A stretch of 64,000 nucleotides of DNA. Origin: Polytrichum commune (lineage: Eukaryota > Streptophyta > Polytrichopsida > Polytrichales > Polytrichaceae). Position numbers and translations under genes: made by a program. The notes under the pieces were generated by a model. That model made no database searches. It had not been told where the DNA came from and worked only from the letters and a program-made list of their open reading frames with translations. The stretch covers positions 58,304,758 through 58,368,757 of the forward strand of contig OX485805.1 in NCBI GenBank assembly GCA_950295325.1, in the 5' to 3' direction. Below, piece after piece: positions 1 to 38,903 of this stretch (positions are counted from its first letter, which is position 1; the number at the start of each line of letters is the position of its first letter).

Positions 1-620
1 TTTGGGTCGAGCGACCCAATCCTTGTCATGGTCAACTACAACCGCCGAAGCTGGGGAAGGGGTTTGGGTCGACCGACCCAAACTTTCACAGGGTAAACCC
101 ACCCACACTCAGAAGGGGTTTAGGTCGGTCGACCCAAACTTTCACAGGGTAAGTCCACCCACACCGGGAAAGGGTTTGGGTCGGTCGACCCAAACTTTCA
201 CAGTGTAAATCCACCCACACTGGGATGAGGTTTGGGTCGCTCGACCCAAACATTACATATGATGGGATAAGGTTCCTACTCTGTCCGTCCAAACCTTCTG
301 AGTACCTTGGGTAAGGGCCATTAACAATTCGTTCACGATGTGCGAAAAAGTTTGGGTCGACCGACCCAAATCTTCTAAAAGGTTTTACGATAAACGCCCA
401 CAGTGGGGTAGGGGTTTGGGTCGACCGACCCAAACCTCACAAGGGTCAGAGTAGACCCCCCCCCCCAACACTAGTGAAGGGGTTTGGGTCGACCGACCCA
501 AACCTCACAAGGGTCAGAGTAGACTCCCCCCAACACTAGTGAAGGGGTTTGGGTCGACCGACCCAAACCTCACAAGGGTGAGACTAGAACCCGCCCACAC
601 TAGTGTCGACCGACGTATAA
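1..620. repeat. Palindrome cluster (TTTGGGTCG-NN-CGACCCAAA type) of element A
   Basis: About nine copies of the 20-bp palindrome occur here at roughly 55-70 bp spacing (for example 63-82 and near 176, 231, 351, 416, 483 and 549). The two central bases vary (AG, AC, GT, CT). The spacers are themselves repeated (CACAAGGGT, CCCACACT). The cluster corresponds to 54470-54970 in B, which lies just upstream of B's transposase-like gene, so these probably sit in the 5' intron of A's off-window copy. Open frames here (VWVDRPK, FGSTDPN, LGRSTQT) are only the palindrome read in different frames. Confidence 0.85.
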
Positions 621-824
621 TGCGGCGTATAATGCAGCGGATATTGAGAGGTGTGTGGAATTTCAGCTCATTGCAAAGTTCACTGCGGACTTGCATGCTG
701 TGGATAGGTCCTCATGAACAGCAGCGTGAACGAACCTCGAAGTACAGCTCCGACTAAGAGTTCTCTCTACGAATTCAGGTGTGGGAGAAGAGCAAAAAGA
801 AACCAACTTTTGGGGGGTGCGCCC

Positions 825-831
825 CTTTATA
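825..831 (-). promoter_or_regulatory. Candidate TATA box for the off-window minus-strand gene
   Basis: TATAAAG on the minus strand lies in a block of roughly 200 bp (780-1000) that matches the inverted sequence 54100-54300 upstream of B's transposase-like gene, where TATAAAG is also present (54249-54255). Conservation in two copies supports a promoter. The transcription start is not visible. Confidence 0.45.
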
Positions 832-1241
832 CTATCCACCTCCACTTGCCCGACTTCCTCATTGGATGCCTTTCCCGCCTTGTTATTTCAAACGTCCTGA
901 CAGAATTCCCCGTTTTCTGTTTATTGTAGAAAATGCGCATCTTTCAATGCCCCTCTCATACCCCAGCCGTCATATGATTTAGTGTATGATATTTAATCTT
1001 TTTTTGGTTTTGTGTGTATATGACATACGACATTGGGAGGAAGGGTGGCGGCCACATTAATTTTTTCAAGTGTCACAACGGTATATTTTAACCAATATGT
1101 ATACCCAACCACAACTCCATTCAATGCTTTCAAGTGCAAACCTATTTCGGTGGGGTTGGGGCCATTTGGAGGCTGCAATTATGAGAGAGTTTCCAAGGCT
1201 TGAGGCCATTGTCATGATGAATAAAATTATTTATTTGTCTC

Positions 1242-1274
1242 CCCTAAACCCTAAACCCTAAACCCTAAACCCTA
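1242..1274 (+). repeat. Interstitial telomere-like tract (CCCTAAA)n
   Basis: There are about four tandem CCCTAAA units. Shorter tracts occur at about 1688-1705, 1884-1892, 2448-2478 and 4264-4275. All lie between the two divergent genes of the element, as do the tracts in B (32128-32172) and C (38877-38903). Confidence 0.9.
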
Positions 1275-1325
1275 GAACATTGCTCTATTATCTCGCATGG
1301 AAGTGTGGCAATGATAAACGTATGT

Positions 1326-1380
1326 AACACTATATTCGTTAAATTCAGACTTTCTCTAGTCTCAAATTAATATATGGATC
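1326..1380 (+). repeat. Terminal-inverted-repeat sequence inside element A
   Basis: AACACTATATTCGTTAA starts at 1326 and is followed by a short AGACT...AGTCT hairpin. The roughly 55 bp match the complement of B's right end (58707-58761) except near the hairpin start. Similarity fades after 1380, and no transposase-like gene follows where one would be expected. It is probably a remnant of a nested insertion or a rearranged end. The preceding 85 bp (telomere-like tract plus CTCGCATGGAAGTGTGGCAA) are repeated at 1685-1755. Confidence 0.7.
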
Positions 1381-1856
1381 AAACAAAAACTTCTACAATG
1401 TCACCCTAATGCATCATATACATATTAAATGATGATATTGATCTACTTTAATTCAAACATTACGGTATGGCATTAACCAATATGTAGACAAAAGAAGTCT
1501 AAACATTGTGTAACGCCTTATGGTAAGAGTCACTAAATACAATAGTTAAAGTGGTTATGAAGATCCTCGCAAGGGGAATTATTAATTTTGAAATCAAATT
1601 ATGTCATGACAAAGTTCATTTATTGTTCCAAATCTGAATTTGCAACAATGCAAGTGACAAGAGCTTTTATATATAATATGTTGTCATCCCTAAACCCTAA
1701 ACCCTACAATATTGTCCTCTTCTCTCGCATGCAAGTGTGGCAATGACGAATGTATGTGGACGTCGATAAGGGGATACTAACTACCAATGTCGCTTTTTAG
1801 TTCAATATTTCCATGCTAATTGAATCCATCCTCAAGTTCACTTCAAGCTTACTAAT

Positions 1857-2700
1857 GTGTGTGAACAAAACATCCAAAGTTGAACCCTAAACCCTTATAA
1901 CATCCACAACATGAAATTATACGTATTGACTAAACCATACACCAATTAGTATATCATGTTTAGACGTTCCAAATAACATATTCACATGATCAAGATTGTG
2001 GTCACTATAACCTTCCTATTAGACTCTTCTTAATATATAAACAACATTTCTTATATCTTTCTCCATTATCTAATATACGTGGAGGGAACAATGAACAACA
2101 ACACGATTGCTTGCATGGCTTCATTTGATGTTGTGCTTAACCGATTTACGTTTATATCACATTCCATATATTAAATACATCACGAACCATAGTTTATTGG
2201 CGACTATGTGATTCATCAAAGGGAGCAAAACATCCAAAGTTAGACCCCTAAGTCCTAATAACATCCACAACATGAAATGCTATTTGAATAAACACAAGAC
2301 CAATTAGTATATCACGTTTAAACGTCCCAAATAACAACTTAACATACTCAACATCATCTTTACTATAACCTTCCTATAAGACTCTTCTCACCAGTAAGTC
2401 AATGTTGTACGTTAATATTGGATAGATTAATATGTTATAACCATGACTCCTAAACCCTAAACCCTAAACCCTAAACCCCAAATCTTGTAGTTGTTCAGTG
2501 CTACCTCCATATACAAACAACATCAAGTTTGTCTTGCGCCATTATCTAATATACTTGGAGCGAACCTTCAATAACAACATGATTGCTTGAAGGGCTTCAT
2601 ATGATGTTGTGGTTCTCCGATTTGCTTTTATATCACATTCCAAGTACATATATCACGATCCATGGTTTATTGGCGACTATGTGATTCATCAAAGTGAATA
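1857..2700. repeat. Diverged direct duplication in the intergenic region of A
   Basis: Two units, about 1857-2220 and 2221-2700, share blocks such as AACATCCACAACATGAAAT, ACCAATTAGTATATCA and GGCGACTATGTGATTCATCA. Part of it (about 2060-2130) matches the complement of B at about 31400-31500, so this is element sequence. I see no coding capacity in 1381-3177. Confidence 0.7.
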
Positions 2701-3177
2701 TCTAGGGGATACCCTATAAAACTTGAGCATGTTAGCATTTTGAAATAAAGATCATGCAATTCCAAACCCTCACAATATGCACTTGGGGAAGGTATTCATT
2801 TAGGCTCCACATTCAAATATCCTCAATTTCCGAATTTCATGTTGGGGGGTGGGGATTGTCTTTTTTATTCATTGCATATTGTGTGAGTTGTTGGCATCAA
2901 TGGTAAAGTCTATTGTATTTGGCACGTAATTGTATTTTTTTTATAACGTGCTCAAACAAACGAGAAACCAATGACTTCAACTTGTTTGGAAAATTTAGTT
3001 AATGGTGTCATGTAAGTAGGAATTAAGTATTAGTGTTAGCATAAAGTTGCGTTGTAAAGATGTATTAGTTGTATAAATGGTTTAGTTTTTTAGAATACCT
3101 CATTTGATGTATACCTTAGGCTACTCCAAAGTCTATTCAAAATTGTACTACCCGCTAAGGGTTTACTCCTTAGAGGG

Positions 3178-4078
3178 ATGGGAGTTAGGGTTCCCCGTAA
3201 CCCTATTCCCGTTGCTGCCCTAATCACGTTGGCACCCTATTCGCGCGGTTCGGGGCCAATTCCCGAGGGTAACAAAACCCCAGCCGCCAAGCATTCTCCT
3301 CCTTTCTCTCTCTCTCTCCCGCCAACCTTTCGCTCCGCGCCTCTTGTGGAAGCGCCGCCTCTCCTGAAGCGCCGTGGCGATTCAGGGTGGCGTTTTTCTT
3401 TACATTCCTTCTCCACCCTTTTTTCTTCTCCTTCCCTCCCTTCTCTTGCTGTAGCGGGAGATTGCACTAGTGTTGCAATATATAGCATTGTTGAAGTGTT
3501 TTCCAGATTGTTGAAGGGTTTTCCAACATTCTGTGTGAGCTTTAGGCAGTGCTTGCGAGAGTTCGAAGTGTGGATGAGTGCATGTGAGTGCTTGTGAGTG
3601 CATGTGAGTGCTTGTGAGTGCATGTGAGGGCTTGTGAGTACATGTGAGTGCTTGTGAGTGCATGTGAGTGCTTGTGAGTGCATGTGAGGGCTTGTGAGTG
3701 CATGTGAGTGCTTATGAGTGCATGTGAGTGCTTGTGAGTGCTTGTCAGATTAGGAAGTTCTATAAGAGATACAAAAGTGATACAAAAGTGCTTTCAGAGA
3801 TTTAGTTATTGTTTTGAGAGATTCAGTTGTTGTTTTAACAGACTCAGTTGTTGTTTGAGAGTTACAATTGTTGTTTGAGTGATTCTGAAGAGACTCAGGA
3901 GTTCTGTGAGAGATTGTGGGTTTATTGAGAGATTCAAGAAAGGTTTAAAATCTTTGGTAGTTGTTTGCGAGTTTTAGCGTGTCTGCGAATAGGAATTCAC
4001 TGATTCTGTCTTAGTCGAAGAAGAGCACTTGTTCAAAAGCAACCATCTGCAACGACTACAACAGAAACCCTCAACAAA
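3178..4078 (+). promoter_or_regulatory. GC-rich promoter and 5' untranslated exon of gene 2, element A
   Basis: AT-rich DNA gives way to GC-rich DNA near 3180. It contains a GCGCCGCC / GAAGCGCC block resembling the inverted B sequence at 30240-30660. A pyrimidine-rich stretch and a minisatellite follow. AAG followed by GTATTG at about 4079 fits a splice donor, giving a 5'-UTR intron that ends at TTTGCAG directly before the ATG at 4590. The transcription start cannot be placed. Confidence 0.5.
3583..3745. repeat. 20-bp minisatellite GAGTGCATGTGAGTGCTTGT
   Basis: About eight tandem, slightly varied copies lie in the presumed 5'-UTR exon of gene 2. They create an artefactual minus-strand frame rich in CTHKHSHALT. 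No counterpart is obvious in B or C. Confidence 0.9.
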
Positions 4079-4128
4079 GGTATTGTTTTTCAAGGGGTTC
4101 CAATATGTGTTTCTTAATTGACAGTGTT

Positions 4129-4164
4129 GTAGCATACACAATGCATAAGCATTGTATATGCTAC
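4129..4164 (+). other. Conserved hairpin in the 5'-UTR intron, element A
   Basis: Arms GTAGCATACACAATGC and GCATTGTATATGCTAC flank an ATAA loop, with one G-U type mismatch. The matching intron of B has a hairpin at 29715-29752 with a compensated base change (GTAGC/GCTAC against GCAGC/GCTGC). C has a different hairpin at 43200-43228 at the same relative place. Confidence 0.75.
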
Positions 4165-4199
4165 ATGCCAAGTTTAAAAAACTATATTAAAATAGAACA

Positions 4200-4562
4200 G
4201 TTTGGGGAGACGACCCAAACACAGCCTATAGTTTGGGTCGATCGACCCAAACAGCACGATGTGCTTTGGGTCCCTAAACCCTAAACACAGCCTATAGTTT
4301 GGGTCGATCGACCCAAAGCACATCCTGCTGTTTGGGTCGGTCGACCCAAACGCAACCTCTACAGTATAAACTTTTCAAGAAATCCTTGATGACAATATAA
4401 AACGCAAATCCACCCAAGATAACGAAATACCATATAAACATATAAATGAAGTTCTAAAATAACAAGACACAATCCAAAAATAAATGCGTTGATGCATTAC
4501 ATTTCCCTTCCATCACGTGACATCTAATCTATTGTGAAGAAGTTTGGGTCGAACGACCGAAA
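4200..4562. repeat. Palindrome copies in the 5'-UTR intron of gene 2, element A
   Basis: Five copies or near-copies of TTTGGGTCG-NN-CGACCCAAA occur around 4201, 4232, 4297, 4331 and 4542. The first and last are imperfect. B has the equivalent set at 27986-29620 and C at 42600-43300. Confidence 0.85.
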
Positions 4563-4589
4563 CTAACATCCTTGCTTCTTTCTTTGCAG

Positions 4590-7500
4590 ATGGCCCCAAA
4601 GAAAAGACCAGGAGAAAGGTGGTTCATGCTTGCGCCAGACGTGTTATGGCAGGAGCACGAAACACCTCAGGATGACTCATATGTCCCTAAGGACGGGCTT
4701 GTCCTCGCCTGGTCAATTCAAGTAGTAAAAACCTCCATTTACAAACTGATATTCGTTGTCAAAGTAGGGACCGTGGAAAAACATACCTGGGCGACTCTTA
4801 CAGGATGGGAGGTGGCGTCGGTCCAGTCTTTTGGAGACTACGCAGACGTCATCCTTGAGAACAACGCTGTGCAGAATGCTCATATGTTTCTGCACCAGTT
4901 CGTCGAACCCTTTGACGCTACATATGCAAGGGAGTCATGTGTCGAACCTGATGTAATCAAACCCGAGACAATTTTCATCGATGCCAGTACATCGAATACA
5001 AAGGTCTCGAGCCGGTTTACGAAACTAAAGCATGCAATCAGCGTGCTCAACAAAGCCCTGCAGAGCAAAACGAAGTCTCAGCAAGCCGTCAGGCGGAAGG
5101 TACCCACTGAGGAAGGTGCAGGGTCGTCAAGGCCTCAATCAGTGAGGATGCCGCAACCAGTCCCGGCTAGCTCAAGACGAACCACTCCATCGGAGACACC
5201 GGCGGATAGCCAGACTCCTACGCCTTCTGGCAGCCGCCAAACAACTCCCTCCAAGAGGGCGAGAGAGTCATCTGTGATGACTGACGAGCCAGTCTCTCCA
5301 GAATTGCGCATGCCGAAGCCAGGGCAGGAAGTGGATGCAGGGGAGATCCAAAAAATCGTGAACAATTTCACGACCAAGTGCTCCCATTGCTTTTTCATGG
5401 GCAGGGATTTCAAATTCGACGTGAACATCAGTCAGTGTCATCTCGCGCCACCAGAAAAATGTGTCCGGGCAAAAGAAGACGCCTACGTCGATTGGATAAT
5501 CGCGCAGATCGTTAGCGAACAATTCAAAGACGACAGGCAAACCATTGTAGTGATGCCTCAGGGACTGAAGAAAATGCCTACCCCTGAAATGTGGGCGACA
5601 ATTCAAAAAGGCGATTTTTGGCTCATAGACGGCCAACACAGCGTTGAGGCTTCCAAGAAAATCCAACTAATGACTGAGTGGGACGATCCCAACCATCAGA
5701 AGGAGAAGTTGAAGGTGTGGAAGGCACTGGTGGTGTGGTCTGACGATGAGACCCGACTGAGCGACATCTCCCGTTACTTTAACATGGGGAATAAGAAAAG
5801 GGCCTACCAAGCTTCCTGGATAAGGAATATCATGGCCTCGCGGGAGGTGTGGGAGTTCTATGGTAGGCCTCCCAAGGAGAGGGAGAATGCAAAGGACAAG
5901 AATCCCAAGTGGGAGGTGAGTATTGTTTGGGTCGATCGACCCAAACTCCTTTTGCAGCTTTATTTGTGTACTTTGGGTCGCTCGACCCAAACTCTTGTTG
6001 CAGTCATGTTTTTTAGTTTGGGTCGCTCGACCCAAACTCTTGTTGCAGTCAGGTTTTTTTTAGTTTGGGTCGATCGACCCAAACTCTTGTTGCAGTCATA
6101 TTTTTTTTAGTTTGGGTCGATCGACCCAAACTCTTGTTGCAGTCATGTTTTTTTAGTTTGGGTCGATCGACCCAAACTCTTGGTGCAGACACTGGTCATG
6201 ATATGTTTTGGAAATCACATGTTCATATCTAACATGCATTCAAATGATTGTTTTGATCACATGCAGGACTTCAAATACCAAATGATAAATAAATTCTCCT
6301 CCATTGATAATGCTAGTCACAAACAGAAGAAATACAACGAGCTTAGAGGGGAGATTTATTTAATAACAGCATCCGACTCCGTTTGGATGAAGTGGAAGAG
6401 TGTATTTGAGAAGCATGAGACGGGTGAGCTCATCGACCCGGACACAGGAATTTTCTTCAACCAAACCACGCGCTTCAAACAAATGAAGCCTCTCGTGAGA
6501 GAGTTCTTTAGAACTCTTCAAGGCCTTTCCGAGACGGAGATGGAGAAGGCGGCGGCGCACATCTTGCATTTCACGCCCACGGCGAAAAGGTGCTGGGTGC
6601 ACCCGAAGATTGTCTTCTTAAAGCCCAAATCCTTCGTCCCTTCATGCTACACCATGAAGGAATGGACGGAGAATAGGAAAAAGAAGACAACTATAGTGCA
6701 GGAGCTGCATAAATTGCTGCCGGAGAGGAATATTGTCGTGGACGGCGAGGTTCATGAGGCTAACTGGAGAGCATTCAAAGCTGAATATAAGTTCACCAGT
6801 GCCTCCATGGCGGCTCTAATAAGGGAAGCGGGGGATGACTTCTTGCGGGCCAAGATGGTGAAGGGTGGGAAGAACCGGGCGCTTCCGGATCACACAGCGC
6901 GTGCGTTCTCGAACTTCATCAAGGAGAAGAAGATTGTCCAGTTTGAAGGGGACGCTTACTTCAACCTTGTCACCTTCGAGCCTTTGAAAATTCAGGGCTG
7001 GCCAGGTCAAGACGCCAGAATGGCGATAAGGACGAAAGCAGGGGGGCGTTTCCCATTCGGAATGATAGATTTCAGGAACATTCCTGGAAGCTCATTTGAG
7101 GGTACGATGAGCACACTGTTTTACGACCCCTTCCTATCTAAGTTCGTCGATTATGCGAGTCCTAAGTTCAGGGAGGTTGATGTCTGGCTATGGATAGTCG
7201 AGGATAGGAGGGCGGAGCAGGTGTACGACCTTGTCCGGAAATTGCAGCCGGAGTATGCAGTCTCCAAGTCTCACTACATCGCCGCACCGGTGGAGGGGGC
7301 CTACACGTCGTTGAAGGACAAGAAGACCAAGGTCGTCAACGTCCTGTGTTTGTACTTCGTGTACAAAGCGGAGTTGTTGAAGGTGCCGAACCACCCTATA
7401 TCCCGGATGGACAAGCTCTTCCAAGTTCCAGATGGGTTAGGTTCCAGCAAATGCCTATACGACGAGGCCAAATACGCAAACTATCCTGCAGATGAGCTGC

Positions 7501-10500
7501 GGATGGAATTCTACATGCGGATGCTGAGGACGCTGACTAGGAGAGGGGACTGTATCTTCAACGTGTTCGGGGGCTCGAAACCCCTCTATGCTGCCATGGT
7601 AAGTTACATTCTTTAGCTCTTGCGCAGTTTGGGTCGGTCGACCCAAACTAGTCTCTCTCTTGGTTTGGGTCGGTCGACCCAAACTAGATATTGTTTTTGG
7701 TCTTGTTTTTTGTCTTGCAATTTCTAATTTCTATATAACTTGGATTGTGTAGATGTTGGGGTTGAACATCTACTCGTACATAGAGGATAGCGATCTGCAA
7801 TTTTACAGGACGCAGAAATCGCTGGCAAAGAAGATGGATATCCTCGATTGGATCCCGGGAAGCTACGTGGACGAGGTTGTTGAGGGGGGTGAGAACCCTC
7901 TTGATTGGGCGAGGCGGATCAACCCGGAAGAAATTGCGATGAGGGCAACAACCCAATTACCCGAACCTCTAGTCGGGTTGCATCCGGGCAATCCGTCCCG
8001 TACAGGAGGTGGAGAGGTGGAAGAGGAGGAGGAAGAAGAAGAACACGGAGAGGAGGAAAAGGAGGGGGATGTGGAGGAAGGGGCAACGGGATTCACGCAA
8101 GAATCTGAAGCCCCTCAGAGGAAGAAGGCTATGCGTGTGGCAACCCCGCAGAGTAAGATGATGCCCGTCCTTACGGTGGACGATGCGAGGGATATGTACT
8201 CCAGGGACACGACTGCCACGTTCCGGGAGAGGAGGAAGTTAAAGGGAAAGAAGCTCTATGGCGATTACGCATTGGAGGAGACCATTGCCATTAGCAGCGA
8301 GGACGACGACGACATTGAGCTCGCCAAACGGCTCAGATCGGATCCCCCCTCCCCGACAGCGTTCGCAGGCATGGTTAGGGTGAAACCCGAAGTCCTCACT
8401 GTGGACGAAGCCAACGAGAAGATGCGTAGAGACGAGGAGCAGCGCGTCCGCCTGCAGAGGGCTGCCGCGGAAGAACCCTCCGTGCGGAACGAGGTCGCAG
8501 AGCTGAGGGCTCTCCTCTTGGAACAAGAAAGACTAAGGGCGATGGCCCAACCTCCATCCAGCGCCGACTTGATATCGCAAGTCATACAAGGGATGTGGGC
8601 GCAAGGATTGGTGGTGGCTCCATCCAGCTCGTTTCCGCACTTGCCCCCCGGTTTCCCAGCGCAGAGCATCCCTCAGCACCCAGTGTCGCAAGGGTCATTC
8701 AGCTTCCAGCACATGATGCGGCCGCCCCATGTTCCGTACGCGCCGGTCCAACAAGTGGACGATCCCAACATCTGGCGCGTATCTGGAGCCTCCTCCCTGT
8801 TGGGCCCTCCACCACTACGACCCCCCATAGTGATGGCGCCCCCTCACCAGCCGGACGATCCCAGGATGTTTGGGTCGACCGACCCAAACCCACCCTCGAC
8901 TGTAGTGCCCCAAGGCGCCTCCCCCGATGCAGGACAGTTTGGGTCGCCCGACCCAAACCCCGGAGCAGCTCAGTCCTCCCTTGACAAACTTGTGTCTCAA
9001 AGAGACACAACCATGTTAGATGTTGAAGGCCTCCAAGGGCCTGGTGATACCTCTAATCCTAACCAAATCGATGAACCCATGCATGATGCATATGCGGAGA
9101 TTGGTTTAGGACAAGGGCCTGATGCTCAACCTTTGCAGGACAAGGTCCCTAACGTAGGCGGAGAAGGCGGTGGCGAGAGAGGTGGGGCACCGGGGACGGT
9201 GGAGGCATCCACATCGTCGAGACATGACCAGGGCGAGGTAACACACTGAGCCCTCCCAGTTTGGGTCGACCGACCCAAACCTCCTTGGTCATTGTCTTGT
9301 TGGCGTGGTCTTGTCCCCCCTAGCTATGAGGAACTACACCCCCCCGACGCACCCAACAACGTGCTCCCCCCGCGATCCCCTTCGTCTCACCTCACTCGAC
9401 TACGCTCAACCTTGGCGGCGCGCAACCAATTTTGTAGATGTACAATTAGGATAGTGTGAATGCCCTCGTTCACCGCCCCCCCCCCCTCAAATTGTACATA
9501 GAGATTTGTAACAATAAAATTATTATTTTTGGCGCCCATATGTTAGCATCCGTGTCCCAATGTATGTTGTTCCCCTTGTATGTTTTTGTTGCCACCAATG
9601 GTCCAATTCTTCTTGTGTTTGCACAAAATTTCCGTTCTGCTTGAATTAAACATAGCATAACATAGTCCTCGCCGCCTTCTCTCGCTCGTCGCCGCAGGGA
9701 TCGGAGCATAGCGTCGTGGCTCCCCACCGGTCCTCCCCGAGGAGCGTGGAGGACAGCGCGGTGGTCCCCCCGATTTTGCCCTCCCCGTCTCCGCCGCCCA
9801 AGACACGGTTCCTGGTGCTAGACCTCAACGGGGTCCTCGTCCAGTGCGTGCACTGTCCCAAGGTCCCCACGGTGCCTTTCTGCAAGCCCGAGGACGCCAA
9901 CTACGATGGTCCCCCCGCGTACATCAAAAGCAAGCTAGTGTACCTCCGCCCGTGGCTTCGGCGCTTCCTGCAGGTCGCCCTATCCAAATGGTGGGTGATC
10001 GTGTGGAGCTCCATGAAGTCCGAGAACACCCAGGCCGTCGTGGAGTTCATCTTCAAGGGACTCCAACCCCCGTGCTTGGTCCTAGGACAGGATTCTTGTA
10101 AAACATTGTACACCCCCGAGGGCAGGGTTGTGAAGAAGCCCAACAACCCTGTCGTAAACCAATTTCTTAAGGTCTTGAAGCCAGTCGTATGGGACCAACG
10201 TCCGACCATGGTCGGCTGTCCCTACGACGTTCGCCCCACCCGTGACAACACGTTGATGGTGGACGACAGCGCTTCCAAGAACATTTTGAACCCGACCTCG
10301 AACTTCATAGTTTGCCCCACGTGGACGGTCGAGAAGGTCCGAGACTGCTTTTTGTTAGACCTACTTAAGAACATTCAAACGCTCGTGGGGAGCGGACTAC
10401 CCGTGCCCCGGTTCCTTAGTTGTAATCCGATAGGCGAAAGATACATGGATCCGAAGGACTATATGTACAGAGAGTTGTACGCTCACGCGAAATATAATAA

Positions 10501-10510
10501 ACTCATTTGA
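4590..10510 (+). CDS. Gene 2 of element A: ParB-like, methyltransferase-like and FCP1-like multidomain protein (intact)
   Basis: Exons 4590-5915, 6267-7598, 7753-9237 and 9698-10510 are all open and join in phase 0 at GT-AG sites, giving about 1651 residues. The start ATG directly follows a TTTGCAG acceptor, as in B and C. Residues 1-442 end in a ParB/sulfiredoxin-like domain with D347-G-Q-H350-S. Residues 443-890 resemble a beta-class or MT-A70 amino-methyltransferase: IDFRNIPG may stand where [DN]PP[YFW] is expected, VWLWIVED resembles the following strand, and VFGGSKPLYAAM (875-886) resembles motif I. Residues about 900-1380 are an acidic, coiled and proline-rich linker carrying two translated palindromes. 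Residues 1382-1651 are an FCP1/NIF-type HAD domain (DLNGV at 1423, DDS at 1570). Intron 3 retention would end the protein three codons later (VTH). Joining rests on sequence logic, not cDNA; the HAD exon could be a separate gene. Confidence 0.75.
5916..6266 (+). repeat. Intron 1 of gene 2 (A) with six palindromes
   Basis: The donor GAG|GTGAGT and acceptor ATGCAG|GAC bound the intron. Six copies of TTTGGGTCG-NN-CGACCCAAA are spaced about 45 bp apart with the spacer CTCTTGTTGCAGTCA repeated. B intron 1 (26313-26628) has five copies with a different spacer (TGTATGAAGAAAC). C intron 1 (44655-44802) has one copy of the C-type palindrome. Confidence 0.85.
7599..7752 (+). repeat. Intron 2 of gene 2 (A) with two palindromes
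   Basis: GTAAGT and TGTGTAG bound a 154-bp intron that splits the methyltransferase-like motif I from the following MLGLN strand. Two palindromes start near 7627 and 7664. B intron 2 (24795-24980) also has two, and C intron 2 (48992-49225) has three of its own type. Confidence 0.85.
9238..9697 (+). other. Intron 3 of gene 2 (A)
   Basis: The donor GAG|GTAACA lies just before an in-frame stop, and the acceptor GCCGCAG|GGATCGGAGCATAGCGTCG is identical in B. One palindrome (near 9259) follows the donor. The rest is pyrimidine-rich and AT-rich with no coding signal. The same donor (GAG|GTAA) is kept in all three elements. Confidence 0.7.
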
Positions 10511-10629
10511 GATACTACATGGTGTGCCATTGTGTGTGATATAGTATGCCTCAATTGTATATCGATTTTCTCATGCTCCCCCCCTGCCCCCCTCCCCTTG
10601 GGTTTTGTTTGTTTTAATTTTCCCATCAG

Positions 10630-11449
10630 CGTTTGGAGCCCTCGATTGACATCGTCAGCGAATCAAACTTGGGGAGCTTCTTCTACGAGACCGTCTACGA
10701 TGCCGCGTCCACCATCGACTACTCCAAGGAGCCTATTGACGCCGGCGTCGTCGATAGCCCCCCACCCAAGCAAATCTTCCGGCCATCTCCGTCCCCGTCG
10801 CCGCTCAAGGGCATAAATCGCAAATGCGTCCGGACGTCCCCGTCTCGGCCCGGCGGCAGTAGTACACCTCAACGGCGGCTGCGGATGGACGCTCGGCCTA
10901 CGAAGAGTGGCACCCTTCCTATTCCTTTGCGGGACGCATTGCCCCTCCTCGCCGACTCCGACGGGAACGCCCCCGGTGACAAGGTGAACCCCCCCCCCCC
11001 CCAAAACATGGTTAACCGCGCATTACAATCATCCGGCACTTAAAAAATGAACGTGTGACACGTTTGGGTCTTCCTCCCTAAACTAACACGTGTGTTCTTG
11101 CATTCACGCGTTGTAGGTTGCTCCCACCCGTAGACCTATGCGGGCTAGTGCGTCCGTCGAGTTGGAGCGTTTCTACTCCATGACCAGAAATGCAAGACAG
11201 TCCACTTCATCGTATTCGAATTCTTCGTCGTATAATTCGGGCGGCCGACGGAATCCAAAATGTGTTATTGATGGCGGTCACCCCAAGAATGGCTATAGTC
11301 GCGGGGCGGAGATTTTCAGGAATGTTGAAGCAATGCGAGCAAAAGAAGCCGCAGCAAAAGAAAAAGAGGCAAAAGAAAAAGAGGCAAAAGAAAAAAAAGC
11401 AAAAGAAAATGAAGCAAAAGAAAAAGAGGTAGTCTCCGAGGCTAGATAG
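10630..11449 (+). CDS. Downstream exons 5-6 of element A (alternative 3' end of gene 2, or separate cistron)
   Basis: Exon 5 (10630-10983) opens after TTTTCCCATCAG and reads RLEPSIDIVSESNLG; it has no ATG near its start. It holds YDAASTIDYSK, GVVDSPPPK and a PSPSPSPLK stretch rich in possible phosphorylation sites. Exon 6 (11117-11449) ends in about 45 residues of AKEKEAKEKE helix. The 5-6 splice is phase 0. Exon 5 is also entered in phase 0, so skipping the HAD exon 4 would keep frame and give about 1609 residues. B (21856-21051) and C (51840-52724) keep the same arrangement. The function is unknown. Confidence 0.6.
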
Positions 11450-11539
11450 GTCATAGTAGGCGTAGGGTTGTGAGCCATAGGCAAGAACATTTTGGGTCGC
11501 ACTATCCAATGGATGTGTGGTGTTAGCATGCTATGCATT

Positions 11540-11987
11540 TTACATGCCATAATTTGTATGTTTTTTTTGCAATAATATAAGTGTCACATGATTTCCCCTT
11601 CAATATGGTCTAAGGTTTGGATTGCCCTACCTAAACCATCACAAATATGAGTTTGGAATATTTTGTATGTTATATTATATTGGTTCACATATTTCCCCTT
11701 CAATATGATCTATGGTTTGGATTGCGCTACCTAAACCATATTCATACAAGTTTTTGTGCGATAATATAAATGTTTTAAGATTTCCCCTTCAACTTGGCCT
11801 AAGGTTTGGATTGCCCACACTAAACAATCCCAAATATGAGTTATTAATGGGGTTCTTGTTCTAAACACCCGCTTCAAAGTGTTCGCATCTTACAACTTTC
11901 TCCAATATGTGTTCCATTTATCCTTGTTCTTATTTATGTGATTGTCTCAAAATGCCCAAAAAGTCTCAATTTAACGAATATAGTGTT
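11540..11987. repeat. Right terminal region of element A: subterminal repeats and inverted repeat
   Basis: Three diverged units of about 85-110 bp carry TTTCCCCTTCAA and GGTTTGGATTGCCC with the inverted TAAACCAT. The terminal repeat occupies about 11950-11987 and holds GTCTCAAAATGCCCAAAAAG before the conserved 17 bp. The inverted sequence at 20503-20940 in B is nearly the same. A half palindrome (TTTGGGTCGCAC) lies at about 11491. Confidence 0.8.
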
Positions 11988-13262
11988 ATCATCTCAGGAT
12001 TCTCATCGTGAGTTTCATAATGAGACTTCACCTGCTTTAAGAACATAGGAGAATGTATAGGATCTGCAATGGAAAGTTGTTTCTTTAGTTCCAAATGGGA
12101 AGTCAATCCTACCCTCTCCACAACTTTGGAAACAAATTCACCCACTGCACTTGAAGTCCAATGTGTAGAATCAGGGTATTTCTCATAAAATTTCCTTTGA
12201 GCAGTAGCAGTAACATCTCCCAACTCTTGCTATACCAAGGAAAAAACATATAAGAGTATGATAAATCACACATAATAAAAATAAGATGTAATAAAACATA
12301 TTGTTATAGAATTCAAAATTTTAAAAATATATATATACAAGAAAAAAAAAACGTGAAAAACTAATACTTTAGAAAAATAACCTAATATAGAAATCCATTA
12401 AGAGCCTCAACAGTAAAAGGGAACCATGTTTTATATTTGGATTTTTATTTGGCATCAGCTGCAGTAAGATCTTCTTTAGAGACAATTTTTTTTAAATATG
12501 AAAGTGGTTGTCCAACAATGCTTTGAATGCGGCAAAACTTATGAACAAGATTCGTACAAACATGGAATTTTTAGTTCCTCATGACAAAATAAAACAACCA
12601 ATGATAAGCCACGGAAAAGAAATATACAATAAAAAAATAAACTTAAAAGAAAACCAAATGAACCGAACAAATAAAAAGAGAAGAATGAAGGAATTACCAT
12701 TTCATGTAAAGCTGCCAACATGGTTGCAATATCTCCCTTGACGTCCAAAAAAATACTTTCAACAACATAATGTCAAGCATGATCATGTATATGATCTCGA
12801 TTAATAATGGGTAACCATGTTTGCATACGGTGGTTTCCATCCCACATCATAAACATTTTGCGAGAAAAAACTTTGAGATCCTCATCTGTTTGCAATATTT
12901 TTTCAAAGGCATCATTTGTCCATACCCAATTTTCACTCCATGATTCAATGATATTATCGGTAACATCAATTGTTTTCTCCTCATTGTTTTCCAAGGCTAC
13001 GTAAAAAACCCCGTTGCCCTCTATATAACCACAAGCAACAAAATGTGTAGCCAGGTTCATAACGTTATTTTTCAAAAAAGACCTAACAACAGGCAATGCA
13101 ACCAATCGACATAATGGAATGTTGAATTTCAATTTTGCCCTTGGTTGATACCTCAACCGTTCAAGACGGGAAGATGTGTTGATAGTTTCTTTCTTAAAAA
13201 TGCATGCAATTGCAATTCCAATTGATCTTCAAAAAAATGTACAACTTCCATATCTAAATCAC
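11988..13262 (-). pseudogene. Decayed ParB/DGNHR-type gene truncated by element A
   Basis: Minus-strand exons read from right to left. The first runs about 13245-12774 with a frameshift near 13170; it contains LKFNIPLCRLVALP and WDGNHRMQTWLP. A short part after a second shift reads DVKGDIATMLAALHEM (about 12750-12690). Another at about 12540-12380 (VSKEDLTAADA) has one in-frame TAA. The last, 12219-11988 (GDVTATAQRKFYEKYPDSTHW), is cut at 11988 by element A. The pattern (F-[DN]-[VI] strand, then D-G-[QN]-H-[SR]) parallels exon 1 of gene 2, so I read it as a distant relative of the ParB-like domain. It is an inactive remnant. Confidence 0.55.
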
Positions 13263-13424: not shown

Positions 13425-14100
13425 GATGGCCGTTAACGGCCACCCTTGTTGGAGGAAAAAAAATGAAGGAAATGAATGTATACATGCAGAAAGATACATA
13501 TATAGAAAATAATATAAAATTTTAATAAAGGTTGAAATAAGTTTATAAATGAAAAAAAAAACATATATAGAAAAAAAATATGAAATTTTAATAAGGGTGG
13601 AAATGAGTGTACACATGAAAAAATAAACTTATATACCAATAAATTTGAGATGCAACCAAGGGTGGCCGTTAACAGCCACACTTTTAGATGGAACAGACAT
13701 AAGAAATATATGTATATATGTGATTTTATTTCAAAGAAATTATGTTGTTAAATGAAGACTGAAACCCAAGAACGGGTACCTTAAACTAGAAAATAGAAGT
13801 TAGCATCATACAAAGGGTGGCCGTTGACGGCCACCCTAAACTAGAACACAGAAGTTGGCATCATAAAAAGGGTGGTCGTTAACGGCCACACTTTTGGATG
13901 GAACATACATAAGAAATATATGTATATATGTGATTTTATTTCAAAGAAATTATGTTGTTAAATGAAGACTGAAACACAAGAACGGATACCTTAAACTAGA
14001 AAATAGAAGTTAGCATCATACAAAGGGTGGCCGTTGACGGCCACCCTAAACTGGAACACAGAAGTTGGCATCATAAAAAAGGTGGCCGTTAACGGCTACC
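13425..14100. repeat. Third palindrome family: arms GGGTGGCCGT / ACGGCCACCC
   Basis: Six copies occur at about 13425, 13660, 13818, 13871, 14023 and 14081, with centres TA or TG and some decayed arms. Two spacer blocks of about 200 bp are duplicated (13700-13860 and 13900-14060). The arm length and 2-bp variable centre match the palindromes of A/B and C, and the cluster is immediately upstream of the DGNHR-type pseudogene. Confidence 0.85.
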
Positions 14101-14945
14101 CATTTGGAAGAGAAATACACTTTGATTTGAGTCACTTTCCAGAGTTGCTATAACGTTTTCAAATATTCTAATTTATTTCCGAAAAAAATCAAGTGCATAG
14201 ATTATAGCCTTACCATTCACACTAATTTTTTTCAGAATTTTTGGAGATGATATCAATTTTACATAAATCGCCAAAGTCTACTGAAATTAATATGATTAGA
14301 TTTCCTGCATAAAATCTTCATTTTTTGAAGATTTTAGAAGAATCTAAGATGCTCTAATTGTTTTTTTGGCTCTAAAACATGCAAAACAAAATCATTTTGT
14401 TCATGCTATATACCGTTGGAATCGTATTCTCAGCGTGCACAATATAGTATACATTACATACCTCCAAATTTATTTTGATTTTAAAGTTATTTTCTTACGA
14501 TTTCTTTCGTACAACCTACCTCCATCTCCGCCTCAGAAGATTGTTCTTCTTTTTCGTATTGTGTGGCATATTTCTCCATGGTTGCACGTGAGCGTACATG
14601 TCTTTTCCATTGGTCTACGAGCTTGGATAAGATGACCCAAAAATATATCAAACCATCCTTGCAGTTTCAACACAAGTAATTATCCAAGGATTACAAAGAC
14701 GCGAAAACAATGGACGACGCCGAGACTAAGTATCATGTGATTCGTTCTTGGTGGTTGTCATCCAGATCTGCCTCGGAAGAAGGCATCCTTGGCATTTCAG
14801 AGTGGTTGGGTTTTTAGCACTTTCGTTATAGACAATGGGGTGGTCATATGTTATTTGTAAGTACATATCAAAATTCAATATTCAATGTCATTCATTTTTC
14901 TTCCATTATTAAATATATCTTATATTTTTATTATCCTCATATTTG
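14101..14945. other. Intergenic, no supported gene
   Basis: AT-rich sequence. A frame at 14366-14635 shows no recognisable motif and I do not support it as a gene. Confidence 0.5.
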
Positions 14946-14958
14946 TGTGTTGTTCATA

Positions 14959-16325
14959 GGATATGACAATAGAACAACATGCGGAAATGCCAACATGCAA
15001 CCTTGCAGAGACTGTACACAAAAAATGGCTCCAACAGTCCGGCAACAAGATGACTTGTTTATATGAAGCTACAGTGGATGACATGATCCGTGCCTTCATG
15101 TAAATTGCAAATTACCGGACATGGTTGAAAGGGGGTCTGATGGTAAAGGTCTTGATTCGGCATCCTTGAAACTCAAAGCGGCTGCCAGGTGTGGAGATCC
15201 AAAAATGTTGGCTGATGCCATGAAGTCTTATCTAAGGGCAGAATACGTCAACACTAGAGATTGTGCATTGGAAGGGTCAAAGCTCTTTGGTTCCACCAAA
15301 CGCAAATTCAACCTATCACCGGGTGTTGATTGTGACTCTCATCGACCCGACAAAGTGAACTATTTCATTCCTCATCCCAACACCCGAGCAACTCGTCAAC
15401 GCATAGAGGAATCGTTGAATTTTGCAATTCATGGTGTGGCTCATACCACATTTGTGTTAGAGACTGATTGTCTTGCTTCTAAGTGGCACATTGCAAGATT
15501 GCCACCCAACTCAGCCAAACGATGTTGGGTACTGCAGGCCATTACAGGAACTATGTACAATACCAAAGTTGGGATTGGGAAACATGTCACACCTGCTCCA
15601 ACATACAAAGGGCTCAGGAAGGAATTTTGCTCTCCCAACAATGTGGAGTATGAATTTTGGTTTTGCCTTGACGATATTAAGCATTGTGTGAGTGGCAGTA
15701 TGAAGAAATATGTGTTGGTTTGGCCTATAGTACCCAACATGTGGCCGGTGAAGATAGGTACCAATCTATCGAGAGAGGAGGTTCTGGCACTTGAAGATGC
15801 TGAATTTCAACTACAGCAGAGGGAGGCATTGTCCCCTCGTCGTAGGCTTTCAACAATCGCAACTCTTCCCAACCCTCGCTCGCATTTTTGTATGCCACCA
15901 AACCCGGACGTCCACCCTACATTCAGGTTTGGAAAGACAGTGCGTCGTAATCCAACAGCACCGCTGGCGGATCACAAAAACAAATGGGAAAGCACCGGAC
16001 TTATGGAAGATTACTATGTGGTTGGGGTCACTGCCATTCCATATCCGGGCTTTGGAGTGATAATCAACATTGTCTCCAAGCAGGATATCACCTACCATGT
16101 CACAATTGGCGACATCCCGCATTGCATATGCCCGGATTTCACGAAAATGTCATCTCATGCATCGGGAAAAAAAGGAAAATGGAGTATTGTAAACATCTTT
16201 ATTATGTGTTTAGATTTTTGTGCAAGGTGGATTACGAGAGTGACAAGTTCATTCATGTACCTACATATACATATAATGAGGTCATGCAACTACTTGAACT
16301 TGCTGATATTGTAAAATGTGAGTAG
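14959..16325 (+). pseudogene. SWIM-zinc-finger repeat-family pseudogene
   Basis: After an acceptor-like TTCATAG the frame reads MTIEQHAEMPTCNLAETVHK and hits an in-frame TAA at about 15102 (probably CAA originally). It shifts frame in a G-run near 15132 and continues to about 16170 (KLKAAARCGDPKMLADAMK, PPNSAKRCW, WPVKIGTNL). A CICPDF SWIM half-site is separated from its YCKHLYYV half by a frameshift in an A-run near 16170. The last exon-like segment (TYTYNEVMQLLELADIVK) is repeated at about 16834-16895. The family looks like the expanded SWIM-type repeat proteins of plant genomes, possibly MULE-derived; that assignment is from memory. Confidence 0.6.
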
Positions 16326-20502: not shown

Positions 20503-20940
20503 AACACTATATTCGTTAAATTGAGACTTTTTGGGCATTTTGAGACATTCACATAAATAAGAACAAGGATAAATGGAACACATATTGGAGAAAGTTGTAA
20601 GATGCGAACACTTTGTGTTGGGTATTTAGAACAAGAACCCCATTAATAACTCATATTTGGGATTGTTTAGGATGAGCAATCCAAACCTTAGGCCAAATTG
20701 AAGGGGAAATCTTAAAACATTCATATTATCGCACACAAAATATGAGATCTTGTATGAATATGTTTTAGGTAGGGCACTCCAAACCCTTAGACCATATTGA
20801 AGGGGAACTATGTGAACCAATATAATATAACATACAAAATATTCCAAACTCATATTTGTGATGGTTTAGTTAGGGCAATCCAAACCTTGGACCATATTGA
20901 AGGGGAAATCATGTGACACTTATATTATTGCAAAAAAAAC
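20503..20940. repeat. Left terminal repeat and subterminal repeats of element B
   Basis: The 17-bp terminal core is followed by GAGACTTTTTGGGCATTTTGAGAC, which holds inverted GAGAC/GTCTC words, and by three TTTGG/TAAACC subterminal units. It is the inverted equivalent of 11540-11987. Confidence 0.85.
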
Positions 20941-21856: not shown

Positions 21857-24800
21857 CTGGCGCAAAAAAGGAAACGAAACAAAACCCAAAGGAAGAGGGT
21901 TTGCTAGAGCGCGTGAAAATCAAGATACATATGAAGCATATATTACACAAAGTGGGCGGGCGCATACACACACACACACACACGTGCTGCCTCAAATGAG
22001 CTTGTTAAATTTCGCGTGAGAGAACAACTCTCTGTACAAATGGTCTCGTGGATCCAAGTATCTCTCGCCTATCGGATTATTCCTAACAAAATTGTTTACA
22101 GGTAGTCCGCTTCCCCTGAGCGCCTGGAGGTATTTACTAAGGTCTAACAAAAATCGGTCCCGGACCTTCTCGACCGTCCACGTAGGGCAAACTATTAAGT
22201 TGGCCGTCGGGTTCAACATGTTCTTTGCGGCGCTGTCGTCCACCATGAGCGTGTTCTCCCGGGTGGGACGGACGTCGTAGGGGACACCTATCAATGACGG
22301 ACGCTGGTCCCAAAAAATGGGCTTCAAGACCTTGAGGTATTGGGGGGAAGCGGGGTTGTTTGGTTTTTTGACGACTTTGCCGTCCGGTGTGTACAATATT
22401 CTACAGGCTTCCTGTGCTAGGACCATGCAGGGGGGCTCGATGCCCTTGAAGATGAACTCCACGACTGCATTGGTGTTCTCGGCCTTCATGGAGCTCCACA
22501 CGACCACCCACCATCGTTGTTGGGCGATCTGGAGGAAGGTCCGAAGCCACGGGCGGAGGTGAACTAGCTTGCTCTTTATGAACGTGGGCGGCCCGTCGTA
22601 ATTCGCGTCCTCGGGCTTGCAAAAGGCCACCGTGGGGGTCCTCGGGCAATGAACGCATTGGACGAGGACCCCGTTGAGGTCTAACACCAGGAACCGGGTC
22701 TTAGGCGGCAAAGGTGGAACGGGTAAAATGGGGGGGACCATCGCGCTACCTTCCTCGCTTCTTGGAGAGGCCCGGCGGGGAGCCGCGACGCTATGCTCCG
22801 ATCCCTGTGGAGACGAGCGACATAAGGCGGGGGAAGACTATGTCATGCTATGTCCACTTAAAGTGAATACAATATTTTTTGTGAAAAATACAAGAACCAC
22901 TATGCATAGGCGGCCATACAAATGCAAGAGGGGGCAAGAGGAAAAAATATACATTTGAACACGAAAACAAACATAAGGGCACAAAATAATAATTTTATTG
23001 TTTGCAATGCTCTATGTACAAAATGCCTAGGGGTGCGAAGCCGCGTTGAACGATCCGTTCAAACTATCCTAATTCAACATCTACAAAATTGTGTGCACGC
23101 CTCCAAGTTCGAGTAAAATCGTGGGACGGGCAACGTTAGTGATCGTCGGGGGGGGGGGGGGGCTGAAGGGATGCGAGAGCGGATGGACGGGGTGGGGGCA
23201 GTTCCTCCTAGCTAGGGGGGACACGACCACGGCAACAAGACAATAGACCATGAGTTTGGGTCGAGCGACCCAAACTGAGGAGGTCTCAGTGTATTACCTC
23301 TCCCTGGTCATGCCTGGACGCCATGGAAGCCTCCACCGCCTCCGCCGCCTCCGCTTGTCGTTCTCTCTCGCCACCGCCTTCTCCGACGATGTCAGCACCC
23401 CTCTCCTGCAAGCGCTCAGTGTCAGGACCTTCTCCTAACCCAACCTCCGCATGTGCATCATGCATAGGTTCATCGATTGGGATAGGAGTAGAGGTATCAC
23501 CAGGCCCTCGAGGACCTTCAACATCAGGCATGGGTGTGTCTCTTTCAGACCCATGCTGGTCCATTGAAGACTGAGCGGTCACGGGGTTTGGGTCGGCCGA
23601 CCCAAACTCTCGTGCATCATGAGATTGGCCTTGTTGCACTGTAAGGGGGGGCGGGTTTGGGTCGGACGACCCAAACATGTGGGGGTCGTCCTGCTGATGG
23701 GGCGGGGGGATCACCAGGGGCGGCCGAAGTGGTGGGGGGGTCACAGGTCTAGAAGACCCGGGAAGGCGCCATATATTGGGGTCATCCGCTTGTTGAACCG
23801 GCGGATACGGACGGACGTGGGGGGGAACCATGTGCTGAAAGCTGAAGGAGGATTGCGGCACGGGCTGCGGAGGAATGTTCTGGGGAGGGAAGCCGGGGGG
23901 CAAGTGTGGAAATGAGCCCGGGGGAGCCACCACCGAACCCTGCACCCACATGCCTCGAATCACTTGCGTGATCAAGTCCGCACTAGTTGGAGGTTGCGCC
24001 AATGCCCGTAGTCGCTCTTGCTCCAATAAGAGAGCCCTTAGCTCTGCCACTTCGTTCCGCACTGAGGGTTCTTCAGCAGCGGCCTTTTGCAAGCGGACGC
24101 GTTGTTCTTCGTCCCTTAACATCTTCTCGTTGGCTTCTTGCACGGTGAGGACTTCCGGCTTCACCTTCACCATCCATGCGAAGGCACCTGGAGAGGGAGG
24201 GTCCGACCTGAGCCGTTTCGCGAGCTCCATGTCGTCCTCGTCTTCGCTGCTAATGGCAATTGTCTCCTCGATGGCATAGTCGCCATAGAGTTTCTTGCCT
24301 TTTAGTTTCCTCCTCTCCCTGAACGCGGCAGTCGCATCCCTGGAGTACATGTCGCGGGCATCATCAACCGTCAGGACGGGCACCAACTTACTTTGTGGAG
24401 TTGCTACCCGCATTGCCTTCTTTCGTTGAGGGGCTTCAGATTCCTGAGTGAAACCTGTTCCCCCTTCTTCGACCTCGCCCTCCACTTTAGCCTCTTCTTC
24501 CTCCTCTTCCACCTCCTCATCCTCCCCCTCCTCGTCACGCGGTCGCCGAGAGGATGTGCCTGGATGCACTTGGACCAGAGGCTCTGGTACAGCAACTGGA
24601 ACCCTTATGGCCAACTCTTCAGGGTTGACACGCCTCGCCTTATCCAGCGGGCTCTCACCCCCTTCAACAGTCTCCTCGGCGTAGCTCCCAGGGATCCAGT
24701 CTAGTATATCCATCTTCTTCGCCAATGATTTTTGGGCCTTGTAGAATTGGATGTCATTAAGGTCTACATAGCTGTACACGTTCAGCCCCAGCATCTGCAG

Positions 24801-24894
24801 AAATCCCACCAGATGTTATTATATGGCATAACATGTGATTCCACCGAAAAGGGGAAGTACATACAAGACCTAATATCAATTGCAAAGGTTATAG

Positions 24895-24955
24895 TTTGGG
24901 TCGAGCGACCCAAACTAGCATCGGTGTTAGTTTGGGTCGCTCGACCCAAACTATG
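24895..24955. repeat. Intron 2 palindromes of element B
   Basis: Two copies, centres AG and CT, lie in the 186-bp intron 24795-24980. This is the same location and number as in A, but the spacers differ. Confidence 0.85.
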
Positions 24956-26419
24956 AAAACAATTATGGTAAGGAGCTTACCATGCCAGCGAAGACGGGCT
25001 TGGTGCCGCCGAAGACGTTGAATATACAGTCCCCTCTTCTCGTCAAGGCCCTCATTATTCGGAGATAGAATTCCATCCGCAACTCGTCCGAATGGTATAT
25101 GGCATATTTTGCCTCGTCGTAGAGGGACTTACTTGCGCCCAGGCCTTCTGGAACTTGGAATAGTTTCTGCATCCGGGTTATGGGGTGGTTCTCCACCTTC
25201 AGCAAGGTTGCTTTGAACACAAAGTACAAGCACAACAAATTCATGACTTTGGTTTTCTTGTCCTTTAGTGTCGTGTACACCCCCTCCGCCGGTGCAGCAA
25301 TGTAGTGAGACTTAGACACCGCATACTCAGGCTGCAATTTCCTCACAATTTCATACACCTGCTCTGCTCTCCTATCCTCTACTATCCACAGCCACATATC
25401 GACCTCCCTAAGCTTAGGGCTTGCATACTCCACGAACTTCGACATGAAGGGCTCGTAGAAGGGTGTACCCATTGTGCCCTCAAACGTACTCCCAGGAATG
25501 CTCCGGAAGTCTACTATACCAAAGGGGAACCGGTCCGCTGCTCTTACTCGTATTTCTTTCCTGGAATCAAGGCCGGGCCATCCCTGGATTTTAATAGGGT
25601 CAAAAGCGACAAGGTTGAAATGCGCATCCCCCTCAAAACTTACAATCTTCTTCTCCTTTATAAAGTTTGAGAAGGCACGCGTCGAGTGTTCTGGAAGAGC
25701 CAGGTTCTTCCCACCCTTCACCAGTTTTGACTTTAGGAAGTCTTCTCCTGCCTCCCTGATCAGAGCTGCCATGGATGCACTGGTGAAGTTGTATTCAGCC
25801 TTGAACGCTCTCCAGTTCACCTCGTTCACCTCGTCATCGACAAAAATGTTCTTTTCCGGGATTAGCTTCTGCAGCTCCTAGACGATCGTTGTTTTCTTCT
25901 TCCTATTCTCCGCCCATTCCTTCATTGTGTAGCATGAAGGAACAAAGGATTTCGGCTTGGTGAAGACTATTTTGGGATACACCCAAAATCTCTTAGGGGT
26001 CGGGTTGTTGTGCAAGATGTGCGTTGCCGCCTTCCCCATTTCCGCCTCCGAAAGACCCTGCAGACTTCTAAAGAATTCTCTCATGAGAGGCTTCATCGCT
26101 TTGAATCGAGAGGACGAGTTGAAGAGGTTGTATGTGTCAGGATCCATGAGATCCCCTGTCTCGTGTTTCTCAAACACTGTCTTCCACTTCTGCCAAACCA
26201 TGTCGGATGATGTAATCAAGTAGATCTCTCCTCTTAGCTCATTATACTTCTTTTGTTTGTGACTTGAATTGTCAATTGAGGAGAACTTGTTTATCATTTG
26301 GTATTTGAAAAGCTGCACAAGAGCATAGAATGCGTGTTAATTATTCTCAATATGTTGTTTCCAAACAAAGAAGAAAAATGATGAACAACAAACTGCGTAG
26401 ACAAACACAAACTAAAACA

Positions 26420-26610
26420 CAAGGTTTGGGTCGAGCGACCCAAACTGTATGAAGAAACACAAGGTTTGGGTCGAGCGACCCAAACTGTATGAAGAAACGC
26501 AAAGTTTGGGTCGAGCGACCCAAACTGTATGAAGAAACCCAAAGTTTGGGTCGAGCGACCCAAACTGTATGAAGAAACACAAAATTTGGGTCGAGCGACC
26601 CAAACTCTGT
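26420..26610. repeat. Intron 1 palindromes of element B
   Basis: Five copies occur about 40 bp apart, all with centre AG/CT, separated by a repeated TGTATGAAGAAAC spacer. The uniform spacer suggests recent local amplification, independent of the six copies in A. Confidence 0.9.
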
Positions 26611-29625: not shown

Positions 29626-29714
29626 TGCAGAGTTTAGTGTTTTAGGGTTTCAAACTGAAGTTTGGGTCGTCTCTCGAAACACTTTTGATTCCAGAGACCT
29701 TTATAATGTGTTTA

Positions 29715-32613: not shown

Positions 32614-32660
32614 AACACTATATTCGTTAATTGGAGACTTTGGAAAGTCTCAAAATAAAT
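32614..32660 (+). repeat. Left terminal inverted repeat of element C
   Basis: The 17-bp core is followed by GAGACTTTGGAAAGTCTC, a perfect hairpin. The same core-plus-hairpin plan is seen at 1326 and at the right end of B (GAGACTAGAGAAAGTCTC). Confidence 0.85.
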
Positions 32661-36379: not shown

Positions 36380-36514
36380 GGCCACTACAAGTGATCCAAA
36401 TGAAGAGTATGTCAAAATATCCCATTCAATAAATGTCATGGATAGTCATAATGCTTATTGTCAATGAAACACAATGTGAACAATAGTGGATTTCATGGCC
36501 TGGAAACAAAGACA

Positions 36515-38876: not shown

Positions 38877-38903
38877 ACCCTAAACCCTAAACCCTAAACC
38901 CTA
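38877..38903 (+). repeat. Interstitial telomere-like tract in element C
   Basis: About four CCCTAAA units at the position equivalent to the tracts in A and B. Confidence 0.9.

Follow-up and report, generated by a model that had tools for sequence, protein, structure and literature searches.

What would a eukaryotic transposon do with one gene that joins a ParB-like, a DNA-methyltransferase-like and an FCP1-like phosphatase domain? The question is raised by a stretch of 64,000 nucleotides of Polytrichum commune, here called the window (contig OX485805.1, positions 58,304,758 to 58,368,757), in which a first-pass annotation described such a gene, gene A, with two further copies, B and C, and proposed that the element marks or reads its own DNA. 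Our analysis suggests that the protein recognises the DNA of its own transposon. We give about an even chance to the reading that it is a family-specific self-recognition and anti-silencing factor, acting at palindromes that the transposon itself carries. This is in our opinion the best reading because clade-specific sites lie at matching places in the elements, the protein has a domain of a palindrome-binding family, and the context is that of a transposon.

Gene A and its transposon family

Gene A is formed by four exons on the plus strand (4590–5915, 6267–7598, 7753–9237 and 9698–10510), each stop-free, of a length divisible by three and bordered by GT..AG. All of them are in phase 0 and the spliced product has 1651 amino acids followed by TGA, as the first-pass annotation had read it. 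Exon 1 encodes an N-terminal part, a linker and a ParB/Srx-like domain with a DGQHS motif (residues about 272–403). Exon 2 leads from a helical part into an amino-methyltransferase-like fold (exon-2 residues about 228–444), which extends from about residue 670 of the protein to beyond 900 and ends in exon 3 (MLGLNIYSYIEDSD), where an acidic, proline-rich region follows. Exon 4 carries a NIF domain (FCP1/SCP-like HAD; about 1420–1610), with DLNGV where DxDx(T/V) is expected. The borders initially assigned to these three parts (230–442, 443–900 and 1380–1651) were thus roughly right. The transcript may include an additional upstream exon, because an AG splice-acceptor-like stretch precedes the ATG in eight copies, A, B and C among them.

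Genes A, B and C all reside in DNA transposons of about 16–20 kb that have 28-bp terminal inverted repeats (TIRs; AACACTATATTCGTTAAATTGAGACTTT) and a DUF7869 gene divergent from the three-domain gene. The elements examined were A, B, C, J1–J7 and a C-like left neighbour of A. Both ends were located in eight of them and a single end in J4, J7 and the C-like neighbour. Each of the eight two-ended elements combines inverted repeats with identical 4-bp flanks, as a target duplication gives (A ATCA, B ACAT, C ACTA, J1 AAAT, J2 ACAT, J3 ATGT, J5 AACA and J6 TAAT), and in each of them Pfam or tblastn places the DUF7869 gene divergently. The window contains six exact copies of a TIR 12-mer, five at element ends and one internal, at 1326; allowing one mismatch gives seven matches for 0.26 expected. 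In the 407.8-Mb genome there are at least 95 copies of exon 2 at 90–100% identity, 76 of the 95 being stop-free, and at least 85 scored copies of DUF7869; the ParB part of C as a query returned at least 150 scored matches, mostly grouping near 87–100, 81–85 and 51–54% identity. These inverted repeats, duplications and copy numbers bear out the description of gene A as a transposon gene, and the DUF7869 gene is likely the transposase.

A palindrome for each family

An unbiased scan of the window detected 62 palindromes that are not AT-rich, compared to one or two in five block shuffles. Each family has its own 18–20-bp palindrome, which is found ahead of both genes and in introns. By core pattern, the TTTGGGTCG-NN-CGACCCAAA class is confined within the window to A (22 sites) and B (23 sites), and the TACGGACG-NN-CGTCCGTA class to C (11 sites, plus two TACGAACG variants). 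In element A, one TTTGGGTCG-NN-CGACCCAAA array (54–605) is placed ahead of the divergent DUF7869 gene, itself left of the window, and another (4199–4358) immediately ahead of gene A. Intron 1 holds an array with 5.7 copies of a 47-bp unit (5925–6188), intron 2 has two palindromes (7628–7683), intron 3 has one (9260–9279), and coding exon 3 has two more (8869–8957), translated in frame as FGSTDPN and FGSPDPN. In element B, TTTGGGTCG-type arrays precede the DUF7869 gene (54470–54977) and gene B (29161–29635). The exon 3 coding palindromes of gene B, at 23587–23675, are also in frame, as FGSxDPN. Element C has TACGGACG-type palindromes ahead of its DUF7869 gene (37037–37671, with a 97-bp unit array from 37255) and ahead of gene C (42607–43301, one of the two TACGAACG variants being at 43284), as well as in introns 1 and 2 and exon 3 of gene C. 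Two sites of the GGTGGCCGT type are located between A and B, beside another open reading frame (ORF) with a DGNHR motif, and the single palindromes at 8990 and 28816 are outside every class.

Palindrome type follows the ParB clade in all 13 element regions compared, with ParB identities of 84–99% within clades and 42–55% between them. Five further A-family elements have 17–31 A-type sites each and zero of the other types. One C copy has seven C-type sites and one TACGAACG variant and an 84% relative has ten C-type sites; three 52% relatives, which form a third clade, have 10–11 TACGAACG-type sites and no others. In the genome as a whole, exact A-type sites number 9,731 and the reversed pattern is absent. 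Among 199 A-type sites with at most two mismatches, each of the 18 fixed positions is unchanged in 188 or more and the two centre bases vary, a conservation that is favoured by the near-match selection itself. The proposal that the element reads its own DNA therefore receives strong, indirect support from the clade-specific palindromes, with binding itself a prediction.

The three domains

The best solved-structure matches of the weak AlphaFold2 model of exon 1 are ParB/sulfiredoxin folds, in agreement with the ParB/Srx fold proposed for it and with membership of that superfamily. ParB, KorB and Noc belong to a family of palindrome binders. Two other matches were taken as chance: a single PDB sequence match to the exon 1 profile (E 0.39) and a Pfam 'GHBP' match under the cut-off (residues 98–293, E 0.001).

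For exon 2, again with a weak model, the best solved-structure matches are amino-methyltransferases, the nearest being MTA1, CcrM, M1.HpyAVI and MboIIA. This low-confidence model has a Rossmann methylase fold, as had been anticipated, with motif IV preceding motif I as in beta-class and MT-A70 enzymes: the strand at 264–268, next to IDFR, comes ahead of that at 430–434 (NVFGG). Neither structural outcome named beforehand as refuting the first proposal, a lack of the ParB/Srx fold or of the Rossmann methylase fold, was thus observed with these weak models. Motif I reads NVFGG(S/T)K in six of seven aligned copies and is followed by an acidic residue in four of five. The catalytic motif of amino-methyltransferases is (D/N/S)PP(Y/F/W), whereas motif IV is DFR..P here in all seven aligned copies. 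An element that marks its DNA requires an active methylase; therefore, that part of the first proposal is not supported as stated.

The NIF domain of exon 4 is above the curated Pfam cut-off in all three genes (E 1.9e-12 in A, 1.2e-15 in B and 3.2e-14 in C), and a PDB sequence search with this exon returned nothing at E ≤ 1. FCP1/SCP phosphatases have the motif DxDx(T/V). Genes A, B and C have DLNGV instead, and so do all 10 NIF copies matched in a pattern scan of the window and nine further stretches; L019 and L027 gave no match. Thus, of the FCP1-like phosphatase originally named, the NIF domain stands and the phosphatase motif does not. The DFR..P and DLNGV motifs both count against a literal 'methylase plus phosphatase'.

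Copies, decay and selection

The four-exon plan recurs in gene B (21995–27962, minus strand) and gene C (43361–51744, plus strand) with homologues of every exon in the same order, as claimed, and both genes are decayed. In gene B, exon 1 is frame-broken and exon 2 contains a single stop. Gene C carries three stops, its exon 2 is interrupted by a 2.9-kb insert, and its ATG is out of frame with the remaining exon 1; its identity to A is about 33–41% outside exon 3 and 25% within it. The insert of about 2.9 kb, at 45822–48713, is not present in copy L036. Among five joined four-exon copies, A and J2 are open throughout and J1, J3 and J5 are broken. The other-clade copies L032, L034, L035 and L036 share the end of exon 1, the borders of exon 2 and the AG ahead of the start codon; exon 2 of the L033 copy is frame-broken.

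Between A and B, synonymous differences (0.41–0.77 per site) far exceed non-synonymous ones (0.07–0.19) in all seven segments tested, the ParB part giving 0.76 and 0.07, respectively. Purifying selection thus appears to act on all three domains. The synonymous divergence falls from 5' to 3', reaching 0.41 in the NIF exon, and the 3' flanks are 91–95% identical, a gradient that suggests a mosaic make-up of A and B.

Element boundaries and neighbouring features

Element A is 15,943 bp long and occupies 1–11987 of the window (plus strand). Its left TIR (C3:58300802, one mismatch) is 3,956 bases beyond the left edge of the window and its right TIR is exact (11960–11987, minus strand), the duplication being ATCA/ATCA. 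An element running from 1326 to 11987 was rejected, since its flanks, ATGT and ATCA, are unequal and the true left end is outside the window. The TIR-like copy at 1326–1353, likely a fossil end, recurs with the same flank inside J1, J4, J5 and J7, about 5.3–6.5 kb from the DUF7869-side end. Element B (20503–58761; TIRs 20503–20530 and 58734–58761; ACAT/ACAT) is interrupted by element C, which is nested in it (32614–53033; TIRs 32614–32641 and 53006–53033, with two and three mismatches; ACTA/ACTA). Their DUF7869 genes are at 55086–58228 on the plus strand (B; PF25273, E 6.9e-43) and at 33271–36445 on the minus strand (C; PF25273, E 5.9e-39). A degenerate TIR with six differences (31322–31349, minus strand) adjoins the C insertion inside element B.

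Directly left of element A, the C-like element has a NIF exon (L019:836–1540, L027). Outside A–C, an ORF at 12773–13228 (minus strand) with a ParB-like WDGNHR motif is located beside a 210-bp-unit array of GGTGGCCGTTNACGGCCACC palindromes (13658–14108), with which it is perhaps a fourth reader-site pair. A 410-codon ORF between elements A and B (15082–16314, plus strand) has no Pfam match. Short telomere-like CCCTAAA tracts are found within elements at 1242–1274, 2449–2482 and 38877–38903. Of three contig ends inspected, two carry the telomere repeat TTTAGGG, as would suit a plant. The observed/expected CpG ratio is 0.39–0.64 in the intergenic stretches measured, which are depleted, versus 1.0 in the 3' part of A.

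Proposed function and alternatives

We propose that the three-domain gene is an accessory gene of large DNA transposons that also carry the divergent, transposase-like DUF7869 gene. Its protein would bind, as a dimer, the palindromes of its family ahead of both genes and in introns and, once bound, would keep the genes of the element expressed, like VANC of the VANDAL transposons. Altered catalytic motifs suggest non-catalytic roles for the other two domains: the methyltransferase-like domain may sense or hold DNA or S-adenosylmethionine instead of performing the usual methylation, and the NIF domain may bind, rather than cleave, a (phospho)peptide of the transcription machinery. A clamp and spreading are part of ParB biology. 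More tentatively, the protein might work as in a ParB-parS system, loading at its own palindromes and spreading along the element, with the methyltransferase-like and NIF domains shielding or activating it; site and protein would then switch together between families, giving separate self-identities within one genome.

Several observations weigh against self-recognition by this protein. The usual nucleotide motif of ParB is the arginine-containing GxxR, which is replaced here by DGQHS(V/L).A, so that GQHS stands without its arginine. The AlphaFold2 models of the exon 1 and exon 2 parts are poor (mean predicted local distance difference test scores of 42 and 50), and Foldseek gave no match at E ≤ 0.001 for the AlphaFold2 models, its exon 1 list consisting of two KorB rows and then mostly unrelated flavoproteins. 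An unnamed PHROG with a single member (21482, E 0.0033) scores equal to the ParB PHROG, and the methyltransferase-like part had no match in Pfam, PHROGs or PDB sequence searches. Moreover, the 9,731 A-type sites are a genome-wide figure and not a count of sites within elements. Finally, the palindromes also precede the DUF7869 gene, and therefore the DUF7869 protein could be their reader.

That the palindromes are read by a host factor or by DUF7869, for instance as transposition enhancers or origins, and that the three-domain protein has another task (e.g., helping transposition), is in our opinion rather unlikely. The DUF7869 genes do have their own arrays of the same palindrome type, and DUF7869 too differs between elements B and C, but sites are also found within the introns and exon 3 of the ParB gene, no exact site lies within the TIRs, and it is the ParB domain that comes from a palindrome-binding family. 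Still less probable is that the protein actively methylates the palindromes, at N6 of adenine or N4 of cytosine, and that the transposon thereby marks its own DNA. Such an enzyme would suit the nearest structures, motif I and its following acidic residue, as well as the core CGNNCG, sometimes CGATCG, and the conserved adenine and cytosines of each A-type half-site, whereas the invariant DFR..P departs from its catalytic motif.

We also doubt that exon 4 belongs to a gene of its own or serves as an alternative terminus, which would make the fusion only partial. In all ten copies (A–C and J1–J7) its NIF domain is downstream of exons 1–3 and shares their strand, and the phase-0 donor GAG/GTAA and acceptor CAG/GG are kept between A and C despite about 40% protein identity; on the other side, a stop comes right after the exon 3 donor in A, B and C, intron 3 of A contains AATAAA, and the exon 3 donor is altered in J3. 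Hardest to credit is an array that has no reader and is only a selfish tandem repeat carried along as the transposons spread. Many sites do belong to tandem arrays, whose units measure 32–111 bp, but the palindrome is common to units of differing length, its 18 positions are held while the two centre bases vary, and another clade has a different palindrome at the same places.

Relation to known systems and significance

Self-recognition and anti-silencing by the three-domain protein would have its closest working model, in our analysis, in VANDAL21 of Arabidopsis. VANC binds motifs in tandem repeats of noncoding regions, including VANC21 introns and the sequence ahead of VANA21 (PMC5735166), and related VANCs act on different elements, where methylation is lost (PMC5735166; PMC10398659). 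The two systems share an accessory gene in a DNA transposon, family-specific motifs in tandem repeats within accessory-gene introns and upstream of the transposase gene (here as positions of candidate target sites), and related proteins that pair with different targets (PMC5735166). They differ in that VANC is a DUF1985/DUF287 protein of MuDR-type elements, whereas ParB, methyltransferase-like and NIF domains occur here with a DUF7869 gene and the sites are long palindromes. The VANC domain DUF1985 had no Pfam match in exons 1–4 of A.

With the bacterial and plasmid systems ParB-parS, KorB and Noc, the shared features are the ParB/Srx fold and palindromes clustered on the protein's own element. 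Here, in contrast, the element is a eukaryotic transposon, the domains are fused, GQHS stands for the arginine-containing motif and binding is predicted; no ParA was noticed, though no search aimed at ParA was made. Fungal KDZ, EnSpm and other DNA transposons carry TET/JBP dioxygenase genes beside the transposase (PMC12730594) and are alike in having a DNA-modification gene there, but the fold is another one here, and TET/JBP had no Pfam match at E ≤ 1 in exons 1–4 of A. Eukaryotic retrotransposons with C5 cytosine methyltransferases, as reported in PMC5890265, also join a mobile element to a methyltransferase fold; the present elements are DNA transposons with an amino-methyltransferase-like fold and an altered catalytic motif.

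Viral contigs scanned with exon 2, the NIF alignment and the ParB alignment gave no relative, tblastn of phages with the ParB part gave none, and Rfam gave nothing at the gathering score. A ParB-methyltransferase-NIF fusion was not found in the open-access literature searched, Repbase and subscription papers being outside that search. DNA transposons with DNA-modifying genes are already known (PMC12730594), and we would file the three-domain fusion as a variant among self-regulating transposons. There is an open chance that a ParB-type mechanism makes the system more than a variant of these.

To our knowledge, very few systems of sequence-specific anti-silencing by transposons are known. If the proposed reading is true, this would be a second transposon anti-silencing system, one whose protein combines ParB, methylase-like and NIF folds. 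With at least three candidate pairs of site and protein, and natural sites in the thousands, a single genome would then allow the co-evolution of reader and site to be tested directly, and ParB-style DNA binding would enter eukaryotic chromatin.
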